DNA from: Nocardia arthritidis
GTDB lineage: Bacteria > Actinomycetota > Actinomycetes > Mycobacteriales > Mycobacteriaceae
Reading direction: 5' to 3'
Assembly (NCBI RefSeq): GCF_011801145.1
Contig: NZ_CP046172.1
Span: forward strand, 5,456,001-5,520,000
Length of the DNA stretch: 64,000 bases
Below, one piece after another: positions 8,803 to 55,115 of the stretch. A model generated the notes under the pieces. The model had not been told where the DNA came from. It made no database searches and worked only from the letters and a program-made list of their open reading frames with translations. A program made the translations under genes and the position numbers. The first letter of the stretch is position 1. Each line of letters starts with the position of its first letter.

Positions 8803-10146
8803 ATGCGCCGCTGGTTCTACCGATCGTCCCTGCTCTTGGCCACCGTGACGGCCACCGTCGCCGCCGCGACGCTGCCCGCCCTCGCCTGCGGTGAGGACGG
8901 CCCGGACGGCGCGGCGCCGAAGGTCACGGGCTCGCCCGGCGCGGAAAAGAACGTCAAGGCGGTGGGCAACGTCCCGGACGCGCAGGGCGCGATCTCGCTG
9001 GGATTCCTCCAATACGGCGACCGCGACGTCATGTATGTCTCCGGCCAGTTCGGGCTGCGGACCTACGACCTCACAGGTAACCCGACGGCCCCGAAACTGC
9101 TCGGACAGCTCAGCATGCCCGGATTGTGGGAGACCGAGGACACGCAGGTCGACCCGGTGCACAAGCTGGCCTTCCTCGCTCGCGACCCGCGCGCCTTCAA
9201 CGGCAACACCGATACCGGCGAATCCGGCGTCTACATCGTGGATTTGGCCGATCCGGCGAATCCGACCACGCTCAGCTATGTGAAGGTGCCCGCGGGTCAC
9301 ACCACCCGATGCATCAACGACTGCCAGTACCTGTGGACCCAGGGCCCGGCCAAGGCGGACGACCAGCCCGCCGACTGGGGCGGCCGCCCGATCTGGGTCA
9401 CCGATATCAGCAATCCCCGTGAGCCCAAAGTCTTTCCGGATCCGATCGATCTGGCGCGCAATGACGGCAAGACCGATTATGTGCACGATGTCCAAGTGGA
9501 CGAGACCGGCATCGCCTGGGCGTCCGGCCGCGGCGGCGTACGCGGGTACTGGACAACGGGCACACACAACGATCCCGTCACCGGTCAGCAGCGCGAGGCG
9601 ACCGCGACCGATCCCGTGCCGTATGCGGGCGGCGGAATCGCGGAGACCGCCGCGCCATCGCGGTTCATGCACAACAGCTTTCGCCCGATCGGCGGCCGCG
9701 CGAAGGACGGCGGCGGCGGGCGGTTCGCCGACGGCGATCTGATCTACGTCACCGAGGAGAATTTCGCACCCGGCTGCGCGGACGACGGCGTCCTCGTCAT
9801 CGCGTCGCTGGACGGCTCCTACGACGGCGAGGGCTGGCGTTCGACCCCGGATCAGCCGTACCGGCTCACCACCGTCGGCACCTGGGGCGTCGCCGGTCAA
9901 GAGGGCAGCGACCCGGCCTCCGACGACTGCTCGGCACACTACTTCGACGTGCAGGACAAGATCCTCGTGCAGTCGTTCTACGCGCAGGGCACCAGATTCC
10001 TCGACGTCAGCGACCCCACCAACCCCCAGCAGATCGCCTACTACCGCCCCGCCGACGCCCGCTCCTGGGCGCCCTACTGGCACCGCGGTCTCGTCTACGT
10101 CGCCGACAACACCCGAGGCATCGACATCCTCCAACTCACCGCATAG
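8803..10146 (+). CDS. secreted LVIVD-repeat beta-propeller protein
   Basis: This 447-residue exported protein has a signal peptide (basic start, hydrophobic run, cleavage near PALACGEDG; the Cys could be a weak lipobox). The rest has the repeated pattern of LVIVD domains: YVSGQFGLRTYDLTGNP, GVYIVDLADPANP, and FLDVSDPTNPQQIAYYRP. The predicted fold is a beta-propeller of unknown ligand outside the membrane. The ATG at 8803 has a strong GGGAGG site. The longer open frame from 8671 lacks one. It is divergent from the binding-protein gene. Confidence 0.82.
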   Translation: MRRWFYRSSLLLATVTATVAAATLPALACGEDGPDGAAPKVTGSPGAEKNVKAVGNVPDAQGAISLGFLQYGDRDVMYVSGQFGLRTYDLTGNPTAPKLLGQLSMPGLWETEDTQVDPVHKLAFLARDPRAFNGNTDTGESGVYIVDLADPANPTTLSYVKVPAGHTTRCINDCQYLWTQGPAKADDQPADWGGRPIWVTDISNPREPKVFPDPIDLARNDGKTDYVHDVQVDETGIAWASGRGGVRGYWTTGTHNDPVTGQQREATATDPVPYAGGGIAETAAPSRFMHNSFRPIGGRAKDGGGGRFADGDLIYVTEENFAPGCADDGVLVIASLDGSYDGEGWRSTPDQPYRLTTVGTWGVAGQEGSDPASDDCSAHYFDVQDKILVQSFYAQGTRFLDVSDPTNPQQIAYYRPADARSWAPYWHRGLVYVADNTRGIDILQLTA

Positions 10147-10196
10147 TCTTTGCCCGATCCCGTTGTGTTCCAGCGCTGATCGCTAGTCTGACGGAT

Positions 10197-10604
10197 ATGG
10201 CGATCTCGCGAAGTTTCGTGAACATCTGCACCGACCGGCTTCCGGAGACACGCGACTTCTACGTCGACCTACTGGGTTTCGAGGTCGGCTTCGACAGCGA
10301 CTGGTTCATCCAATTGAGCGCCAAGGGATCCGACGCGACCATCGGCATCATGCGACGCGACCACGAGCTGGTGCCGGAGCAGGCCCGCGGCACGGCATCC
10401 GGTTCGTACCTCACCGTCGTCGTCGACGATGTGGAACCGGTATTCGCCCGCGCCAAGGAACTCGGCGTGCCGATCATCGAGGAGCCGACGGACCTTTTCT
10501 ACGGCCAGCGCCGCATGCTGGTGTCCGACCCCAACGGGGTGGCCGTCGACGTATCCAGCCCGACGGCGCCACCGACCGCCGAATTCGGTTACGCTCCAGC
10601 GTGA
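10197..10604 (+). CDS. VOC-family (glyoxalase/bleomycin-resistance fold) protein
   Basis: This 135-residue protein contains one vicinal-oxygen-chelate module pair: TDRLPETRDFYVDLLGFEVG, a middle strand WFIQLSAKGSDATIG, and the closing LVSDPNGVAVDVSSP. Members are small metal-dependent lyases, dioxygenases or drug-binding proteins, and no substrate can be assigned. Its 3' end overlaps the convergent reductase gene by 16 bases. Confidence 0.82.
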   Translation: MAISRSFVNICTDRLPETRDFYVDLLGFEVGFDSDWFIQLSAKGSDATIGIMRRDHELVPEQARGTASGSYLTVVVDDVEPVFARAKELGVPIIEEPTDLFYGQRRMLVSDPNGVAVDVSSPTAPPTAEFGYAPA

Positions 10605-11497
10605 TTCGGTCGCTGCGCAAGCTCCTCGACCAATTGTCGCGTCAGCGGCACGGGTAATCCGCGCCGATCGGCCGCGCGGACGATCGCGCCGCCGATCGCG
10701 TCGAGTTCGGTGGGGCGTCCCGCCTCCGCGTCGCGTTGCATCGATGACTTCGTATTCGCCGGGAAGATCTCATAGCGGGCGAGGACGTCGGCGGCTTCGA
10801 CGGTCGCACCATGGGCTCGGCTCACCGTGGCGATCTCCTCGACCAGCGTCCGCAGCTCCGGTAGTCGCTCGGATCTGATGCCGCCGAACGGTATTCGATA
10901 GCGAGTGGTGAGCAGCGCCAGCGGCGCGAGAAGGGCCAGCTTGTCCCAGAGCACGGCGTGCTCGTCCGGCATGACCCGGGTGTTCACTCCTGCGGCGATC
11001 AGCTGCGCGGCAAGCGGGGCGAGATCCTCGGGCACGGCGGCGGCCATATCGATCTCGACGAACGGGCTGTTGTGCTCGATGGTTCCCGGCGTCGTGCGGG
11101 TGGACTCGACCCGGATGATCGCGGGAACCACCTGCCCGACTCCGTAGCGCGCCCGTAGCAGGTCGATATGTTCTATGCCGTTGAGCAGCGGCAGGATTCG
11201 ACCGTCGCGCAGGCGCTCCGGCGGCACGCGGTCCAGGGCGGCGTCGAGCGCGGTGTGTTTGACGGTCACCAGGCACAGATCGACGGACTCGGACAGGACG
11301 GTCGCGGCCTCGACTCGGGCGGTGAAGTTCCCGAACTGGTTGCTACGCACCCGGATTCCGCTCTCGCCCAGCGCGTCGACGGTCCGCGGGCCGCCGAGGC
11401 AGATGACGCGGTGCCCGGCCCGCGACAACAGTGCGGCGAGTAGTCCGCCGACCCCACCGGGGCCGAGTACCGCGACTGTCGCCTTACCTGACCACAT
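10589..11497 (-). CDS. ketopantoate reductase-family (ApbA/PanE) oxidoreductase
   Basis: The N-terminal Rossmann motif VAVLGPGGVGGLLAALL is followed by LCLVTVKHTALDAAL, the family's LLNGIEHIDLL segment and a C-terminal helical domain (LWDKLALLAPLALLTTRYR). About 302 residues matches 2-dehydropantoate 2-reductases, which use NADPH. Many actinobacterial paralogues act on other keto acids, so a role in pantothenate synthesis is not proven. The ATG at 11497 is preferred to an upstream TTG at 11521. Confidence 0.82.
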   Translation of the reverse strand: MWSGKATVAVLGPGGVGGLLAALLSRAGHRVICLGGPRTVDALGESGIRVRSNQFGNFTARVEAATVLSESVDLCLVTVKHTALDAALDRVPPERLRDGRILPLLNGIEHIDLLRARYGVGQVVPAIIRVESTRTTPGTIEHNSPFVEIDMAAAVPEDLAPLAAQLIAAGVNTRVMPDEHAVLWDKLALLAPLALLTTRYRIPFGGIRSERLPELRTLVEEIATVSRAHGATVEAADVLARYEIFPANTKSSMQRDAEAGRPTELDAIGGAIVRAADRRGLPVPLTRQLVEELAQRPNHAGA

Positions 11498-48705: not shown

Positions 48706-48785
48706 GGAGTTGTTGTTCTGACCGAAGGTCCCTGGCGGATTGTGGTCAGGCACCGAAGAATAACCGCGACATTTCGCGCTGCATT

Positions 48786-48858
48786 CGGCATGTGCGTGCA
48801 TTGGAAGTTTATGTCGCCCAACCAATTCGGACGGCCGACCGACGAGCGATATGCGGCT
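48786..48858 (+). repeat. A-element copy 9
   Basis: CGGCATGTGCGTGCATTGGA, core CCCAACCAATTCGGACGGCC, right end GACGAGCGATATGCGGC. Confidence 0.8.
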
Positions 48859-49192: not shown

Positions 49193-50980
49193 TCAGTCGA
49201 GGTATGCGTTGGCTTGGGCGCGGTACATGTCGGCGTAGTGGCCGTTGTGATCGATGAGTTGTTGGTGGGTGCCTTGTTCGATGATGTGGCCGTGGTGCAG
49301 GACGTAGATGTGGTCGGCGGTGCGGACCGAGGAGAAGCGGTGTGAGATGAGCAGTACGGTGCGGTCGTGGCAGAGGGTGCGCAGGGTGGTGAACAGGTCG
49401 GCTTCGGCGCGGGGGTCCAGCGCGGCGGTGGGTTCGTCGAGCACGATCAGTGGGGCGTCGCGGAAAAAGGCGCGGGCCAGGCTGATTCGCTGCCATTGGC
49501 CCATGGACAGGTCGGTGCCGTCGGTGTACTCGGCGCTGAGTTGGGTGTGGTATCGGTGGGGCAGGGTGTCGATGAACGCGGCCGCGCCCGCCTGGGTGGC
49601 GGCGGTGTGGATGCGGTGCTGGTTGTCGATGTCCGGCGGGCGGCCCAGCCCGATGTTGTCGGCGGCGCTGAGTTTGTAGCGCTGGTAGTCCTGGAACAGG
49701 ACCGCGCACACGTTGCGGAGTGTGGCGGAGTCGGTGACGGTGTGCCCGTCCAGGCGCAAGGTTCCGCCGGTGGGCCGGTAGAGGCCGGCGAGGAGTTTGG
49801 CGAGGGTGGTTTTGCCCGAACCGTTGTCCCCGACCAGGGCGATCACCTGACCGGCCGCCAAGCGCACCGAAACCCCTTGCAGCGCGGGAACATTCGAGCA
49901 GGGGTAGGTGAACCACAGGTTGTCGGCGGTGATTTCGGTGAATTGGGTGGTGACGGCGGCGGGTTCGGCGAGGCTGGTGTCGGTGCCGAGGAAGCTGCGC
50001 AGGTCGTTCATGAACAGCATGCTGGTTCCGGCGCCGCCCACCATCGCCGCGGTGCTGCGGACCTGCCCGCTGAGCAGGTACATCGCGGCGAGCCCGGTCA
50101 GTGCGGTCGCGGTGTCCAGGTGCCCGGAGGCGGTGAGGACCATCATGATCGCGACTCCGGCGGCGACGATCGCGTCCGACAGCAGGCGTGCCCGGATCTC
50201 GCGCCAGGTGTAGTGACGCAGCAGCGTGGCCTGTTGATGCAGGTACTGCTGGTAGCAGTGGTCGAGGCGTCCCCACAGCAGGTGGGCGGTGTCGAAGGCA
50301 CGCAGCTCTTTGGCCTCGTCGCGGCCGGTCAGCAACTGTCGCAGGTAGTTGCGGGTGCGGGTGTTCTCGGTCAGTTCGACCGCGAGGGCGTAGGTGGCGC
50401 GTCGGCGCGCCAGGGCCACCCGGACCGCGGGGGCGGCCGCGGCGGCGATGATCGGGAGCACCCAGGGGCTGACCCTCAGCAGCGGCACGGCGATCGCCAG
50501 CAACAGCACGACGGTGCGCAGCCCGGTGATCACCGTGGTCAAGGTCATCGGCACGGAGCTGCGGGCGGCGGTCACGGCACGCTCGACACGGTTGTGGAAC
50601 TCCGGGCCTTCGAAGTCCTCGAGCGGGGCCGATGTAGCCGCGGCCACGACTGCACGCAACGCCGACCGCTCGATCTTGATGCTCAACAGCCGGGACACGG
50701 CGCTGTTCACCTGCGTCAGCGCGGCACCGAGGCTGCCCAGCGCGAGCAGCACCACGGTGGACACGGCCAGCCCGGCCGGGTTCGCGGCGGTGGTGGCGCC
50801 CATCAGGTGGTGCAGGGCGGTGCGGGCGACGAGCAATCCTGCCCCGGTACCGGCGGCGCCTGCGGCGGCGAGGACGAGCGCGGCCGAGACCAGGCGGCGG
50901 TCGGCCCGCCAGGCCAGCACGAGGGAGAACGAGTACAGCCGTCCCAGATCGCGAACCGACAGCCGCCGTGAACCTTCCAC
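49193..50980 (-). CDS. ABC exporter, fused permease/ATPase
   Basis: About 595 residues: a type I permease half with about six membrane segments (LVSAALVLAAAGAAGTGAGL, AVSTVVLLALGSLGAALTQV, VITGLRTVVLLLAIAVPLL) and an ATPase with Walker A LVGDNGSGKTTLAKLLAG, ABC signature DLSMGQWQRISLARAFF, Walker B PLIVLDEPTAALDP and the switch His in LLISHRFSSV. No C39 peptidase domain is present. Start is uncertain; GTG 50980 is the last plausible one, as the frame runs further. Downstream of the Cys-rich peptide in the same operon, it is the likely exporter of that peptide. Confidence 0.85.
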   Translation of the reverse strand: MEGSRRLSVRDLGRLYSFSLVLAWRADRRLVSAALVLAAAGAAGTGAGLLVARTALHHLMGATTAANPAGLAVSTVVLLALGSLGAALTQVNSAVSRLLSIKIERSALRAVVAAATSAPLEDFEGPEFHNRVERAVTAARSSVPMTLTTVITGLRTVVLLLAIAVPLLRVSPWVLPIIAAAAAPAVRVALARRRATYALAVELTENTRTRNYLRQLLTGRDEAKELRAFDTAHLLWGRLDHCYQQYLHQQATLLRHYTWREIRARLLSDAIVAAGVAIMMVLTASGHLDTATALTGLAAMYLLSGQVRSTAAMVGGAGTSMLFMNDLRSFLGTDTSLAEPAAVTTQFTEITADNLWFTYPCSNVPALQGVSVRLAAGQVIALVGDNGSGKTTLAKLLAGLYRPTGGTLRLDGHTVTDSATLRNVCAVLFQDYQRYKLSAADNIGLGRPPDIDNQHRIHTAATQAGAAAFIDTLPHRYHTQLSAEYTDGTDLSMGQWQRISLARAFFRDAPLIVLDEPTAALDPRAEADLFTTLRTLCHDRTVLLISHRFSSVRTADHIYVLHHGHIIEQGTHQQLIDHNGHYADMYRAQANAYLD

Positions 50981-51089
50981 GGCGGCTGTGCGCTCGCACC
51001 CCGCACCCGCAGGTGGCGGTGTCGTGCTCGCGTCGATGGTGACTCGCCCGGTTATCCCACACCCGTCCGTTTTGACACTGCATGCAGGT

Positions 51090-51124
51090 GCCGGGAGGTG
51101 CGGCGCGGGGCCGCACCTCCCGGC
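51090..51124 (-). terminator. strong hairpin between peptide and exporter genes
   Basis: 14-bp perfect stem GCCGGGAGGTGCGG / CCGCACCTCCCGGC with a 7-base loop, no T run. Lying between a small peptide gene and its exporter, it may act as a partial terminator or processing site that keeps peptide mRNA more abundant. Confidence 0.55.
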
Positions 51125-51134
51125 GGTCACCGCG

Positions 51135-51314
51135 CTAGGGGGCGGGGACTTCACAGCATGCCGTCCCGTTGACGACACCGACAACCGCACAGGTTGAGCT
51201 GGCGGTACTGATACATTCCGCGACCGTATCGCTGCTCGTGCTGAGCATCTCGTCGCAGGCCGGCAGGGTTTCACAACACTGGTTGCCGGCTTCGCAATCC
51301 TCGCAGGTGCACAT
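51135..51314 (-). CDS. acidic Cys-rich 59-residue peptide, candidate RiPP/bacteriocin precursor
   Basis: Starts at the ATG 5 bases after the mauD-like stop with AAGAAGG at ideal spacing. MCTCEDCEAGNQCCETLPAC begins the peptide. Ten Cys lie at 2, 4, 7, 13, 14, 20, 34, 42, 53 and 54, and the C-terminus is CCEVPAP. Nine acidic residues and no Lys, Arg or His make it strongly anionic. It has no signal peptide, so an ABC transporter would be needed for export. The operon supplies MauE/MauD-type disulfide proteins upstream and an exporter downstream. A disulfide-rich peptide product is therefore likely. No known RiPP modification enzyme (lanthionine, radical SAM, YcaO) is adjacent. Confidence 0.75.
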   Translation of the reverse strand: MCTCEDCEAGNQCCETLPACDEMLSTSSDTVAECISTASSTCAVVGVVNGTACCEVPAP

Positions 51315-51319
51315 GATGT

Positions 51320-51919
51320 TTACCTTCTTTCTTCGCCAAGGGGGATCCTTGGCCATCGGCCGATGTCGGCCGATGTCTGGGGCGTCGTTGTCGACGCGGG
51401 AGTCATCCGGGCGAGCAACTGCGCCGCGTCGCCCGGATACCAGTGGTCGGTGATCCGCCCGTCCGGGCCGAACAACACCGCGCGGGGCGTCCCCCGGATC
51501 CGGAACCGCTCGGTGAGCGAGGCGACCGCGTCCGGGTCGGTGACGACCGGCACCCGCATCGGCCTGTGCTCGAGCAGCCGTGCGCACGCGTCGCCGTCAC
51601 CGCGGCAGACCAGGACCAGTCGCGGCCGGTGCCCGTTGAGCGCGGCGGACAATCCGTCGAGGATCTTGTGGCACGACGAGCAGGTCGGCGAGACGAACAG
51701 CAGCCCGCCCGGGTGCCCGGCGAAATCGGTGGCACCGACCGGCTCCCCGCCGGTGGCCGTGACCGCGAATTCCGGTGCGCGCCTGCCGATCATCGCTCGC
51801 CCGGGATCCGGCGGATGGCGCAGCCGATCCAGTGACCGGGTCACACCCATCATCAACAGTGCCTGCGCGCCGACCAGAATCCACAACGTCAGCAGCGAAA
51901 TCATCAATGGTGCCGACAT
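51320..51919 (-). CDS. MauD-like thioredoxin-fold disulfide protein
   Basis: A 199-residue membrane-anchored protein: N-terminal segment MISLLTLWILVGAQALLMMG, then APEFAVTATGGEPVGATDFA, active site FVSPTCSSCHKILDG (Cys-x-x-Cys) and cis-Pro region RIRGTPRAVLFGPDG. It resembles MauD, which with MauE forms the disulfides of the methylamine dehydrogenase small subunit. ATG overlaps the MauE stop by one base (TGATG). It precedes the Cys-rich peptide by 5 bases. Confidence 0.85.
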   Translation of the reverse strand: MSAPLMISLLTLWILVGAQALLMMGVTRSLDRLRHPPDPGRAMIGRRAPEFAVTATGGEPVGATDFAGHPGGLLFVSPTCSSCHKILDGLSAALNGHRPRLVLVCRGDGDACARLLEHRPMRVPVVTDPDAVASLTERFRIRGTPRAVLFGPDGRITDHWYPGDAAQLLARMTPASTTTPQTSADIGRWPRIPLGEERR

Positions 51920-52497
51920 CACCGGGTCCCCTTCCCCGCCGCAGTCGTGACGCGCGATACCAGCACAGTCCGTGACAGCACCGGTAACTCGAACGCCCAC
52001 ATCGCGACGACGACGGCGGCCACCGCGAACCCCACCGCGGCGAGCAGATCCTGGCTACCGACCCCTCCCGCCCACACCGGCCCCGACCCGCCTGCGGCCC
52101 ACCGATGCACCGCAAGATCAACGACCGCGGCCAGCAGCACCAGCAGCCGTCCCACGGTGCGCCAGGAGATGTCCTCACTGTGCGGGCCGAAACAGCCACA
52201 CGACACCAGACGGCCCCGAGACAGGTTCACCACCACCGCCGCCAGGAACACCAGCGACAACACACCGGCCACCAGCAGCGCGTACCCCAGCGCGAGCCCG
52301 GTCGCCAACCCGGCACCAGCCAGCAGCTCGACCGCGACCACGCCACCGGCCACGACGGGAACCAGCCGCACCGGCACCATCTCGTAGTCCCGCACGACCC
52401 CCGCAAAACTTCGGAAATCCGTCAGCTTCGCCACCCCCGCGGTACAGAACACCGCACCCAACGCGAACTGAACGGCCAACCACAGGTCGGTCGACAC
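51919..52497 (-). CDS. MauE-like membrane redox protein (DoxX/MauE family)
   Basis: A 192-residue integral membrane protein with about four to five segments (VAVELLAGAGLATGLALGYA, LVAGVLSLVFLAAVVVNL). The MauE-conserved motif CGCFG is present in VSCGCFGPHSEDISW. GGAGGT precedes the GTG start. In methylamine dehydrogenase maturation, MauE works with MauD on the disulfides of a small subunit. Here it is the first gene of an operon MauE-MauD-peptide-exporter. Confidence 0.85.
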   Translation of the reverse strand: MSTDLWLAVQFALGAVFCTAGVAKLTDFRSFAGVVRDYEMVPVRLVPVVAGGVVAVELLAGAGLATGLALGYALLVAGVLSLVFLAAVVVNLSRGRLVSCGCFGPHSEDISWRTVGRLLVLLAAVVDLAVHRWAAGGSGPVWAGGVGSQDLLAAVGFAVAAVVVAMWAFELPVLSRTVLVSRVTTAAGKGTR

Positions 52498-52547
52498 CAG
52501 GCACCTCCAGCCCTGACATCCCGACCCATTTACGTGACATAAATTAC

Positions 52548-52562
52548 ATAGCTGACAGCTAT
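52548..52562. promoter_or_regulatory. candidate operator of the MauE operon
   Basis: Perfect 7-bp inverted repeat ATAGCTG, one base, CAGCTAT in an AT-rich patch about 50 bases before the MauE start. The surrounding TTACGTGACATAAATTACAT is unusually AT-rich for this genome. It fits a regulator site or promoter; no regulator gene lies in the operon. Confidence 0.55.
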
Positions 52563-52680
52563 TATTTCGTTACAGGCAACTGCCGGGCCCGAACACCTTG
52601 TCACGGCATAAACACGCGACGCGCCGCTCGTCATCGGAGCGGTGGTAGATCGCGCCGGGCAACCGCGCGCAGCCTGACAT

Positions 52681-52754
52681 CGGCCATATGCGTGCGTTGG
52701 AAGCCCTGTCGCCCAACCGATCTGGAGGATTGATCAACGCTCGCCATGCGGCAT
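52681..52754 (+). repeat. A-element copy 10
   Basis: CGGCCATATGCGTGCGTTGG, core CCCAACCGATCTGGAGGATT, right end CAACGCTCGCCATGCGGCAT. Separates the peptide operon from the next gene. Confidence 0.85.
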
Positions 52755-53165: not shown

Positions 53166-53167
53166 CA

Positions 53168-53222
53168 TCGGCTTGTGCGTGGGAAGACCGTGCCGCTCAA
53201 CAGATCTGAGCGGTTGACCGCC
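53168..53222 (+). repeat. A-element copy 11
   Basis: CGGCTTGTGCGTGGGAAGAC, core CAACAGATCTGAGCGGTTGA. Right end not recognisable. Confidence 0.75.
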
Positions 53223-55037: not shown

Positions 55038-55115
55038 ACATACCGCTGCGCGCGTGTTGGTCAACCGTTCATATCGGTTGGGCGACATGGTCTTCCAACG
55101 CACGCACATGCCGAT
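55038..55115 (-). repeat. A-element copy 13 (reverse orientation)
   Basis: Read on the minus strand: left end CATCGGCATGTGCGTGCGTT, core CCCAACCGATATGAACGGTT, then GACCAACACGCGC. Perfect inner and outer arms, the best-preserved copy. The gap 54831-55125 holds only copies 12 and 13. Confidence 0.87.

Follow-up and report, generated by a model that had tools for sequence, protein, structure and literature searches.

A MauE-MauD pair beside a ten-cysteine peptide gene and an ABC exporter in Nocardia arthritidis: a candidate system for an exported disulfide-rich peptide

What does a MauE-MauD pair do in a genome in which the methylamine dehydrogenase light chain, MauA, is not found? The question is raised by a minus-strand locus of Nocardia arthritidis that lies in a 64-kb window, i.e., the whole stretch of DNA that was analysed, at positions 5456001-5520000 of one 10.0-Mb contig. 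Direct reading of the sequence gave the order MauE-like protein, MauD-like thioredoxin-fold protein, 59-aa Cys-rich peptide, hairpin and ATP-binding cassette (ABC) exporter (Table 1). An earlier note on this DNA had stated that no dehydrogenase gene was present, and for the light chain this held: a search for MauA (PF02975) gave 0 matches in the window genome, the same search being positive in three of the six genomes to which it was applied. The reading that we favour, with moderate confidence, is that the operon would make an exported, disulfide-rich, leaderless peptide that is oxidised outside the cell by MauD and MauE. It is supported because the same parts recur at 52 of 60 loci and twice more in the window's own genome.

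Recurrence of MauE, MauD, cysteine-rich peptides and exporters

A class-level search with a single MauD found MauD with an ABC exporter, mostly also with MauE, beside small Cys-rich peptides. A profile built from eight MauDs, and thus seeded with 8 rows from loci already known, gave matches in 30 of the 394 genomes of the class (E <= 1e-16) and in 68 of the 150 of the genus (E <= 1e-12), many of the weaker ones in the genus being in frames of ~345 aa. From the MauD searches and one exporter search, 73 loci were entered (labelled L and a number), 72 with MauD and 60 with MauE, MauD and ABC exporter; at L075 and L076 the gene caller gave no MauE. The genus-level loci that were read are nine of the strongest kinds plus L032, L039, L040, L043 and L044, the last four being loci at which a MauE-MauD fusion of ~330-345 aa adjoins a gene for a 111-114-aa four-Cys protein. 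Named host genera of the loci include Nonomuraea, Streptosporangium and Streptomyces. Genes were taken from a simple caller of our own, and a small Cys-rich open reading frame (ORF) was defined as one of 40-100 aa with at least 5 Cys and 7% Cys that was either called or provided with a ribosome site.

Such an ORF was present at 52 of the 60 MauE-MauD-ABC loci and at 0 of 37 exporter-only loci (Fisher p = 2.6e-19, a statistic that ignores kinship of the loci). With the five profile-seeding loci removed, the count was 47 of 55. Controls were centred on the exporter and tests on MauD, and L124, which has a Mau gene, was left out of the controls. As to redundancy, the loci fell into 41 MauD clusters at 60%, 33 of them with a peptide. 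Eight loci fell outside the peptide thresholds: L257, L267 and L278 have a small 4-Cys peptide, L262 has a small peptide farther away, L252 has a 94-aa Cys-bearing gene by an ATP-grasp gene, and the remaining three are L249, L273 and L281. The association of MauE-MauD with a Cys-rich peptide and an ABC exporter recurs far too often for chance.

Two further systems of this kind are found in the same genome. In L132 (~8.16 Mb; L132:5319-8960) the genes are those for a peptide, MauE, MauD and a divergent exporter. In L158 (~47 kb; L158:6870-10617) a peptide with an AxA leader is accompanied by MauE, MauD, an exporter and an S26 signal peptidase frame (9844-10617); an HTH_18 regulator and an nSTAND1-WD40 gene lie beside this locus. 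The L132 peptide has 62 aa and a cystine-knot-like Cys pattern, as does that of a relative in another genome of the genus (L230:6806-6955); 8 of 81 ORFs examined fit the loose form of this pattern. The L230 peptide matched Pfam Conotoxin below the cut-off. Against PDB sequences it gave four matches at E up to 1, none significant (0.11 to 0.77), all of which we take to be knottin-type venom peptides. Its model had a mean pLDDT (predicted local distance difference test) of 68.5, with residues 31-49 at ~85-87, and a Foldseek comparison with known structures returned mostly venom peptides, the top three at probability 0.95-0.98 and E 0.13-0.87. A literature search for bacterial cystine-knot peptides gave only aphid studies among the matches listed.

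The pair also occurs with other candidate clients. In three genomes of the same family (L036, L037 and L042) MauE-MauD adjoins MauA, which in L042 scored 1.9e-30; by reading, the MauE-MauD-MauA run in these other genera is followed by lipoprotein-like genes. The passages on mau genes in the decRiPPter study, which cite van der Palen 1997, present a part of MauE in forming the disulfides of the MauA subunit as speculation and describe the exact role of MauD as unclear (PMC7794033). At L034:8423-10772 and L035:4317-8987, MauE-MauD fusions of ~480 aa have a Cys-rich protein nearby, with 41 Cys at a distance of 0.1 kb in L034 and with 20 Cys at 2.6 kb in L035. These proteins have, by manual reading, twin-arginine-like N termini, look secreted and are perhaps larger clients of the same chemistry. 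Because of the MauA neighbours and the Cys-rich proteins of L034 and L035, the MauE-MauD pair would seem often to go with a Cys-rich client. Among more distant loci, MauE was found beside DsbA-like thioredoxins in both of the cases examined.

Some loci point to other classes of ribosomally synthesised and post-translationally modified peptide (RiPP). At L074:15007-18231 a MauE-MauD fusion and an exporter stand beside a peptide whose score for the SflA family of class IV lanthipeptides (NF038148) is 26.1 bits, above the cut-off of 25. L278:1428-7767 combines a small Cys peptide, a JmjC_2 protein, an exporter, a MauE-MauD fusion and an S9 peptidase, and is possibly a further RiPP type. At L131:8866-12707 and L252:4032-8300, MauE, MauD and exporter are found with ATP-grasp enzymes of the MvdD type and with small genes whose products contain Cys; here disulfides may be added to graspetide-like products.

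The operon and its peptide

The gene order, the CGCFG and TCSSC motifs, the spacing of the genes, the composition of the peptide and the hairpin, all reported in the earlier note, were confirmed on re-reading. The MauE and MauD genes overlap by one base (TGATG), and the peptide start lies 5 bases past the MauD stop codon. The MauD-like protein has a hydrophobic stretch at its N terminus. Its TIGR02661 score, 36.5 bits, is below the cut-off of 188.6, and it is therefore called MauD-like and not a MauD equivalog.

The peptide has ten Cys, at positions 2, 4, 7, 13, 14, 20, 34, 42, 53 and 54, nine Asp or Glu, and no Lys, Arg or His. Its Cys gaps (1,2,5,0,5,13,7,10,0) do not follow the inhibitor cystine knot spacing C-C-CC-C-C. 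A Shine-Dalgarno-like AGAAGG precedes the peptide ATG, and AAGAAAGAAGG is located upstream of that ATG. No match to Pfam or to any other profile family was obtained, and no similarity to MauA was found. Such a composition is very rare in the fetched DNA: only 8 of 11,611 distinct ORFs of 40-80 aa had 8 or more Cys and no more than 2 Lys plus Arg, when any start codon of each ORF was allowed and in DNA enriched for MauE/MauD loci. By manual assignment, a MauE/MauD pair adjoins six of the eight, the window peptide included, and three of these six have almost the same sequence. The 20-Cys ORF of L035 mentioned above, which has 195 aa, contains a seventh.

Beyond the peptide gene is a hairpin with a perfect stem and a 5-nt loop, placed ten bases after the peptide stop. 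The fold score of the 111-nt stretch that contains it (Table 1) is relative to 200 shuffles, and the hairpin was absent from the listing of a scan for T-tailed terminators. The exporter start is best placed at the GTG at 50980; the in-frame ORF extends upstream of this codon and enters the peptide gene in another frame. A palindrome upstream of MauE may be an operator.

Table 1. Features of the MauE-MauD-peptide-exporter locus (window coordinates)
Feature	Position	Strand	Basis
MauE-like membrane protein, 192 aa, CGCFG motif	51919-52497	minus	Pfam MauE PF07291 1e-26; motif read directly
MauD-like thioredoxin-fold protein, predicted membrane-anchored, 199 aa, TCSSC	51320-51919	minus	AhpC-TSA 3.7e-06; TIGR02661 MauD 3.3e-09, below cut-off
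Cys-rich acidic peptide, 59 aa, presumed product precursor	51135-51314	minus	composition; AGAAGG; no family or homologue found
Hairpin between peptide and exporter genes, 15-bp stem	51090-51124	minus	RNA fold, z = -2.8
ABC exporter, 595 aa	49193-50980	minus	ABC_tran 8.8e-30; no C39 domain in Pfam scan
Palindrome ATAGCTG-T-CAGCTAT, 15 bases, ~50 bp upstream of MauE; putative operator	52548-52562	minus	located in sequence

Two features of the surrounding DNA may be mentioned. A dispersed imperfect repeat of ~60 bp occurs at 48785-48843, 52679-52744, 53167-53219, 55046-55115 and elsewhere, the window holding 11 matches of 20-67 bp besides the query copy. The segment 37492-43273 holds genes that, from their translations, presumably represent transposase pieces of two insertion-sequence kinds; some of these are short, as if broken.

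Leader peptidases, trees and the proposed mechanism

In the common type of locus the peptide begins with a short amphipathic leader whose last residues are AxA, and the cluster also encodes an S26 signal peptidase (in L075, PF10502 at 1.6e-19). A six-frame search of 62 peptide loci, with AxA defined by a regular expression of our own, found both S26 and AxA at 52, neither at 3, AxA alone at 4 and S26 alone at 3, so that the two were present or absent jointly in 55 of 62. The loci with S26 and no AxA (L258, L266 and L170) read VSA, VEA and AGA near the expected place, and L131, one of the four with AxA and no S26 within 6 kb, is an ATP-grasp cluster. The three loci with neither are L132, L230 and the window locus, in which the peptide shows no amphipathic leader and no AxA site before the first core Cys, and in which a six-frame profile search found no S26 signal peptidase within 6 kb. 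On the simplest reading the leader would be removed by S26, and at loci without S26 the peptide would be exported whole or cut by something else. Because S26 and AxA mostly co-occur and the window locus has neither, a leaderless peptide is supported.

When 78 exporters were placed in a tree, one clade (support 100) took in 58 of the rows, mostly from S26 loci. The window exporter fell outside it, in a group of 17 rows (99, by a quick method), and L231, an S26 locus, fell outside both groups. The 17-row group also holds the exporters of L132 and L230, of the ATP-grasp-linked loci L131 and L124 (MvdD-type) and of L074b, beside the class IV lanthipeptide precursor, together with exporters beside PqqD, asparagine-synthase and transglutaminase-like genes, which we take to be the lasso-peptide set. 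Export of a peptide is supported because the window exporter groups with those of lasso-like, ATP-grasp and class IV lanthipeptide loci; its own branch is long (1.2). In the unrooted MauE tree a split (95/94) set the S26 class apart from a group that holds the window protein, the fusions of L278 and L074b and MauEs from amine-dehydrogenase operons. In the MauD tree the window protein joined L278 (96/59), a placement flagged as a possible long-branch artefact, and lay weakly on the amine-dehydrogenase side (90/41). The window operon thus looks like a separate recruitment, the shared parts being real, and the window peptide with its MauE and MauD is, on the sequences compared, an unusual and so far solitary branch.

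What is known of these protein families leads to the following scheme. The 59-aa peptide would be made reduced in the cytoplasm, without a removable leader, and pumped out by the ABC exporter. At the outer face of the membrane the anchored MauD-like protein, through its TCSSC motif, would pair the ten cysteines, and the MauE-like protein would re-oxidise MauD and pass the electrons to the respiratory chain. Owing to the hairpin that follows the peptide gene, more peptide than exporter would be made. The direction of redox flow and the order of the steps, the substrate of export, the absence of cleavage and the effect of the hairpin are likewise put forward on these grounds, and the peptide might have an antibacterial or signalling role.

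Several observations weigh against an oxidised, exported peptide. A search of ~5.8 billion proteins found no homologue of the peptide, and the other 149 genomes of the genus gave nothing better than weak matches (E 0.01-0.1). The peptide is without homologues, and therefore conservation, to which the earlier note had looked, cannot vouch for it. Against the reality of the gene we also count its GC content by codon position (0.52/0.60/0.73) and the fact that the simple gene caller used here did not pick it. The exporter start lies 154 bp past the peptide gene, beyond a strong hairpin, and the exporter may be a separate unit. The window MauE and MauD do not lie near their counterparts in the well-supported class, and the direction of the enzymes, taken to be that of an oxidase and not of a reductase or isomerase, is not given by sequence alone. 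The earlier note had proposed that the same gene order be sought elsewhere; the combination was found repeatedly, as described above, but the association with Cys-rich peptides is not universal, because at four loci of congeners (L039, L040, L043 and L044) the MauE-MauD fusions stand without an adjoining exporter or Cys-rich small gene.

These points bear on alternative explanations. The MauE-MauD pair might be a remnant of amine-dehydrogenase maturation, or a general oxidation pair, with the peptide ORF and the exporter as unrelated neighbours. This would fit the grouping of MauE with amine-dehydrogenase-type MauEs (95/94) and, weakly, that of MauD (90/41), as well as a peptide without homologue and a hairpin that separates the exporter. 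We consider it unlikely, given the coding overlap of MauE and MauD, the 5-base gap to the peptide, the rarity of Cys-rich, Lys/Arg-poor ORFs, the same combination at two other places of the genome and the fusions of L278 and L074, which belong to the same MauE group and also occur with a small Cys peptide and an exporter. Alternatively, the cysteines might stay as thiols that bind metal, in the manner of a metallothionein, with MauE/MauD and the exporter keeping or moving a reduced, metal-loaded form. The C-x-C-x2-C motif, two CC pairs, ten Cys, many acidic residues and lack of basic residues would all suit such a peptide. But MauE/MauD are elsewhere often found with Cys-rich secreted clients, the seven scanned proteins from the locus and its flanks include none for metal handling, and no metallothionein family was matched, so that we find this quite doubtful.

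There is a small chance that an enzyme from outside the operon modifies the peptide, the disulfides being a side feature of another RiPP type. MauE-MauD pairs or fusions are indeed also found with ATP-grasp, JmjC and class IV lanthipeptide genes, while the gene list and the domain scan revealed no modification enzyme in the operon. That the locus is an ordinary member of the S26-type class, with its leader peptidase encoded elsewhere, seems very improbable: the peptide has no such leader or AxA site, the exporter is outside the clade of most S26-locus exporters, and the MauE is outside the S26-type class, even though the same four parts are present and an AxA leader occurs without S26 within 6 kb at 4 of the 62 loci (one of them the ATP-grasp cluster L131).

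In sum, we retain a leaderless peptide oxidised outside the cell by MauD and MauE as the preferred reading. More tentatively, MauE-MauD could be a portable oxidative-folding cassette that was recruited more than once to loci for peptide export; the window operon would then be a separate recruitment, from the amine-dehydrogenase-like MauE side, and would make, with no leader peptidase, a leaderless, wholly anionic, ten-Cys peptide that represents a new type among exported disulfide-rich peptides. The preferred reading would give MauE and MauD a concrete job outside amine dehydrogenases, the folding of exported Cys-rich peptides in actinobacteria. In the wider set, dozens of loci combine diverse peptides with one common machinery, and the window genome itself contributes cystine-knot-like ones. 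How such bacteria build multi-disulfide peptides becomes testable, and a ready cassette for producing such peptides would be at hand.

Comparison with known systems

The maturation pair of methylamine dehydrogenase consists of the same two families, adjacent and with a Cys-rich client beside them, as at L036, L037 and L042. The window operon differs in that its genome gave no MauA match and in that the client is a 59-aa peptide unlike MauA. In glycocin loci such as that of sublancin, disulfide oxidoreductases are encoded beside a peptide and an exporter. These loci, which the earlier note had named as the closest logic, are not the closest relatives found. Its statement that glycosyltransferase and C39 peptidase are missing agrees with our Pfam scan of the locus and its flanks: the exporter showed no C39 domain, and none of the seven proteins scanned was a glycosyltransferase.

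The S26-type loci (L075-L080, L158, most of L160-L170 and L231-L280) share with the window locus the four parts, the size of the peptide and its cysteine content, whereas the window locus has no AxA leader and no S26, and its exporter clade and MauE group are different. L132 and L230 share with it MauE, MauD, a Cys-rich peptide, the same broad exporter clade and the absence of S26 and AxA. They differ in having a knot-like Cys spacing, basic residues, a divergent exporter, and a MauE and MauD that go with the S26-type class.

A published precedent comes from the decRiPPter study of 2020, whose passages on mau genes describe three Streptomyces candidate RiPP families with mauE, one of them also with mauD (PMC7794033). 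The precursors of these families carry at least 8 Cys, orthologues of the other mau genes are absent from those genomes, and the authors propose a role for mauE/mauD on the RiPP precursor (PMC7794033). Judged by those passages, the concept of such a peptide class was already available, and the novelty of the class is not supported in the form that the earlier note had given it. No other study of the topic was found among the matches listed, subscription journals and preprints aside. The window locus likewise has a MauE homologue, an adjacent MauD-like thioredoxin and a small precursor with at least 8 Cys. It has no peptidase in the operon, unlike the families of decRiPPter's strict filter, which, as described there, required a peptidase and a regulator (PMC7794033). 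A broad range of actinobacterial peptide clusters, little studied as yet, nonetheless shares its plan, which is of a kind that is known though unproven.

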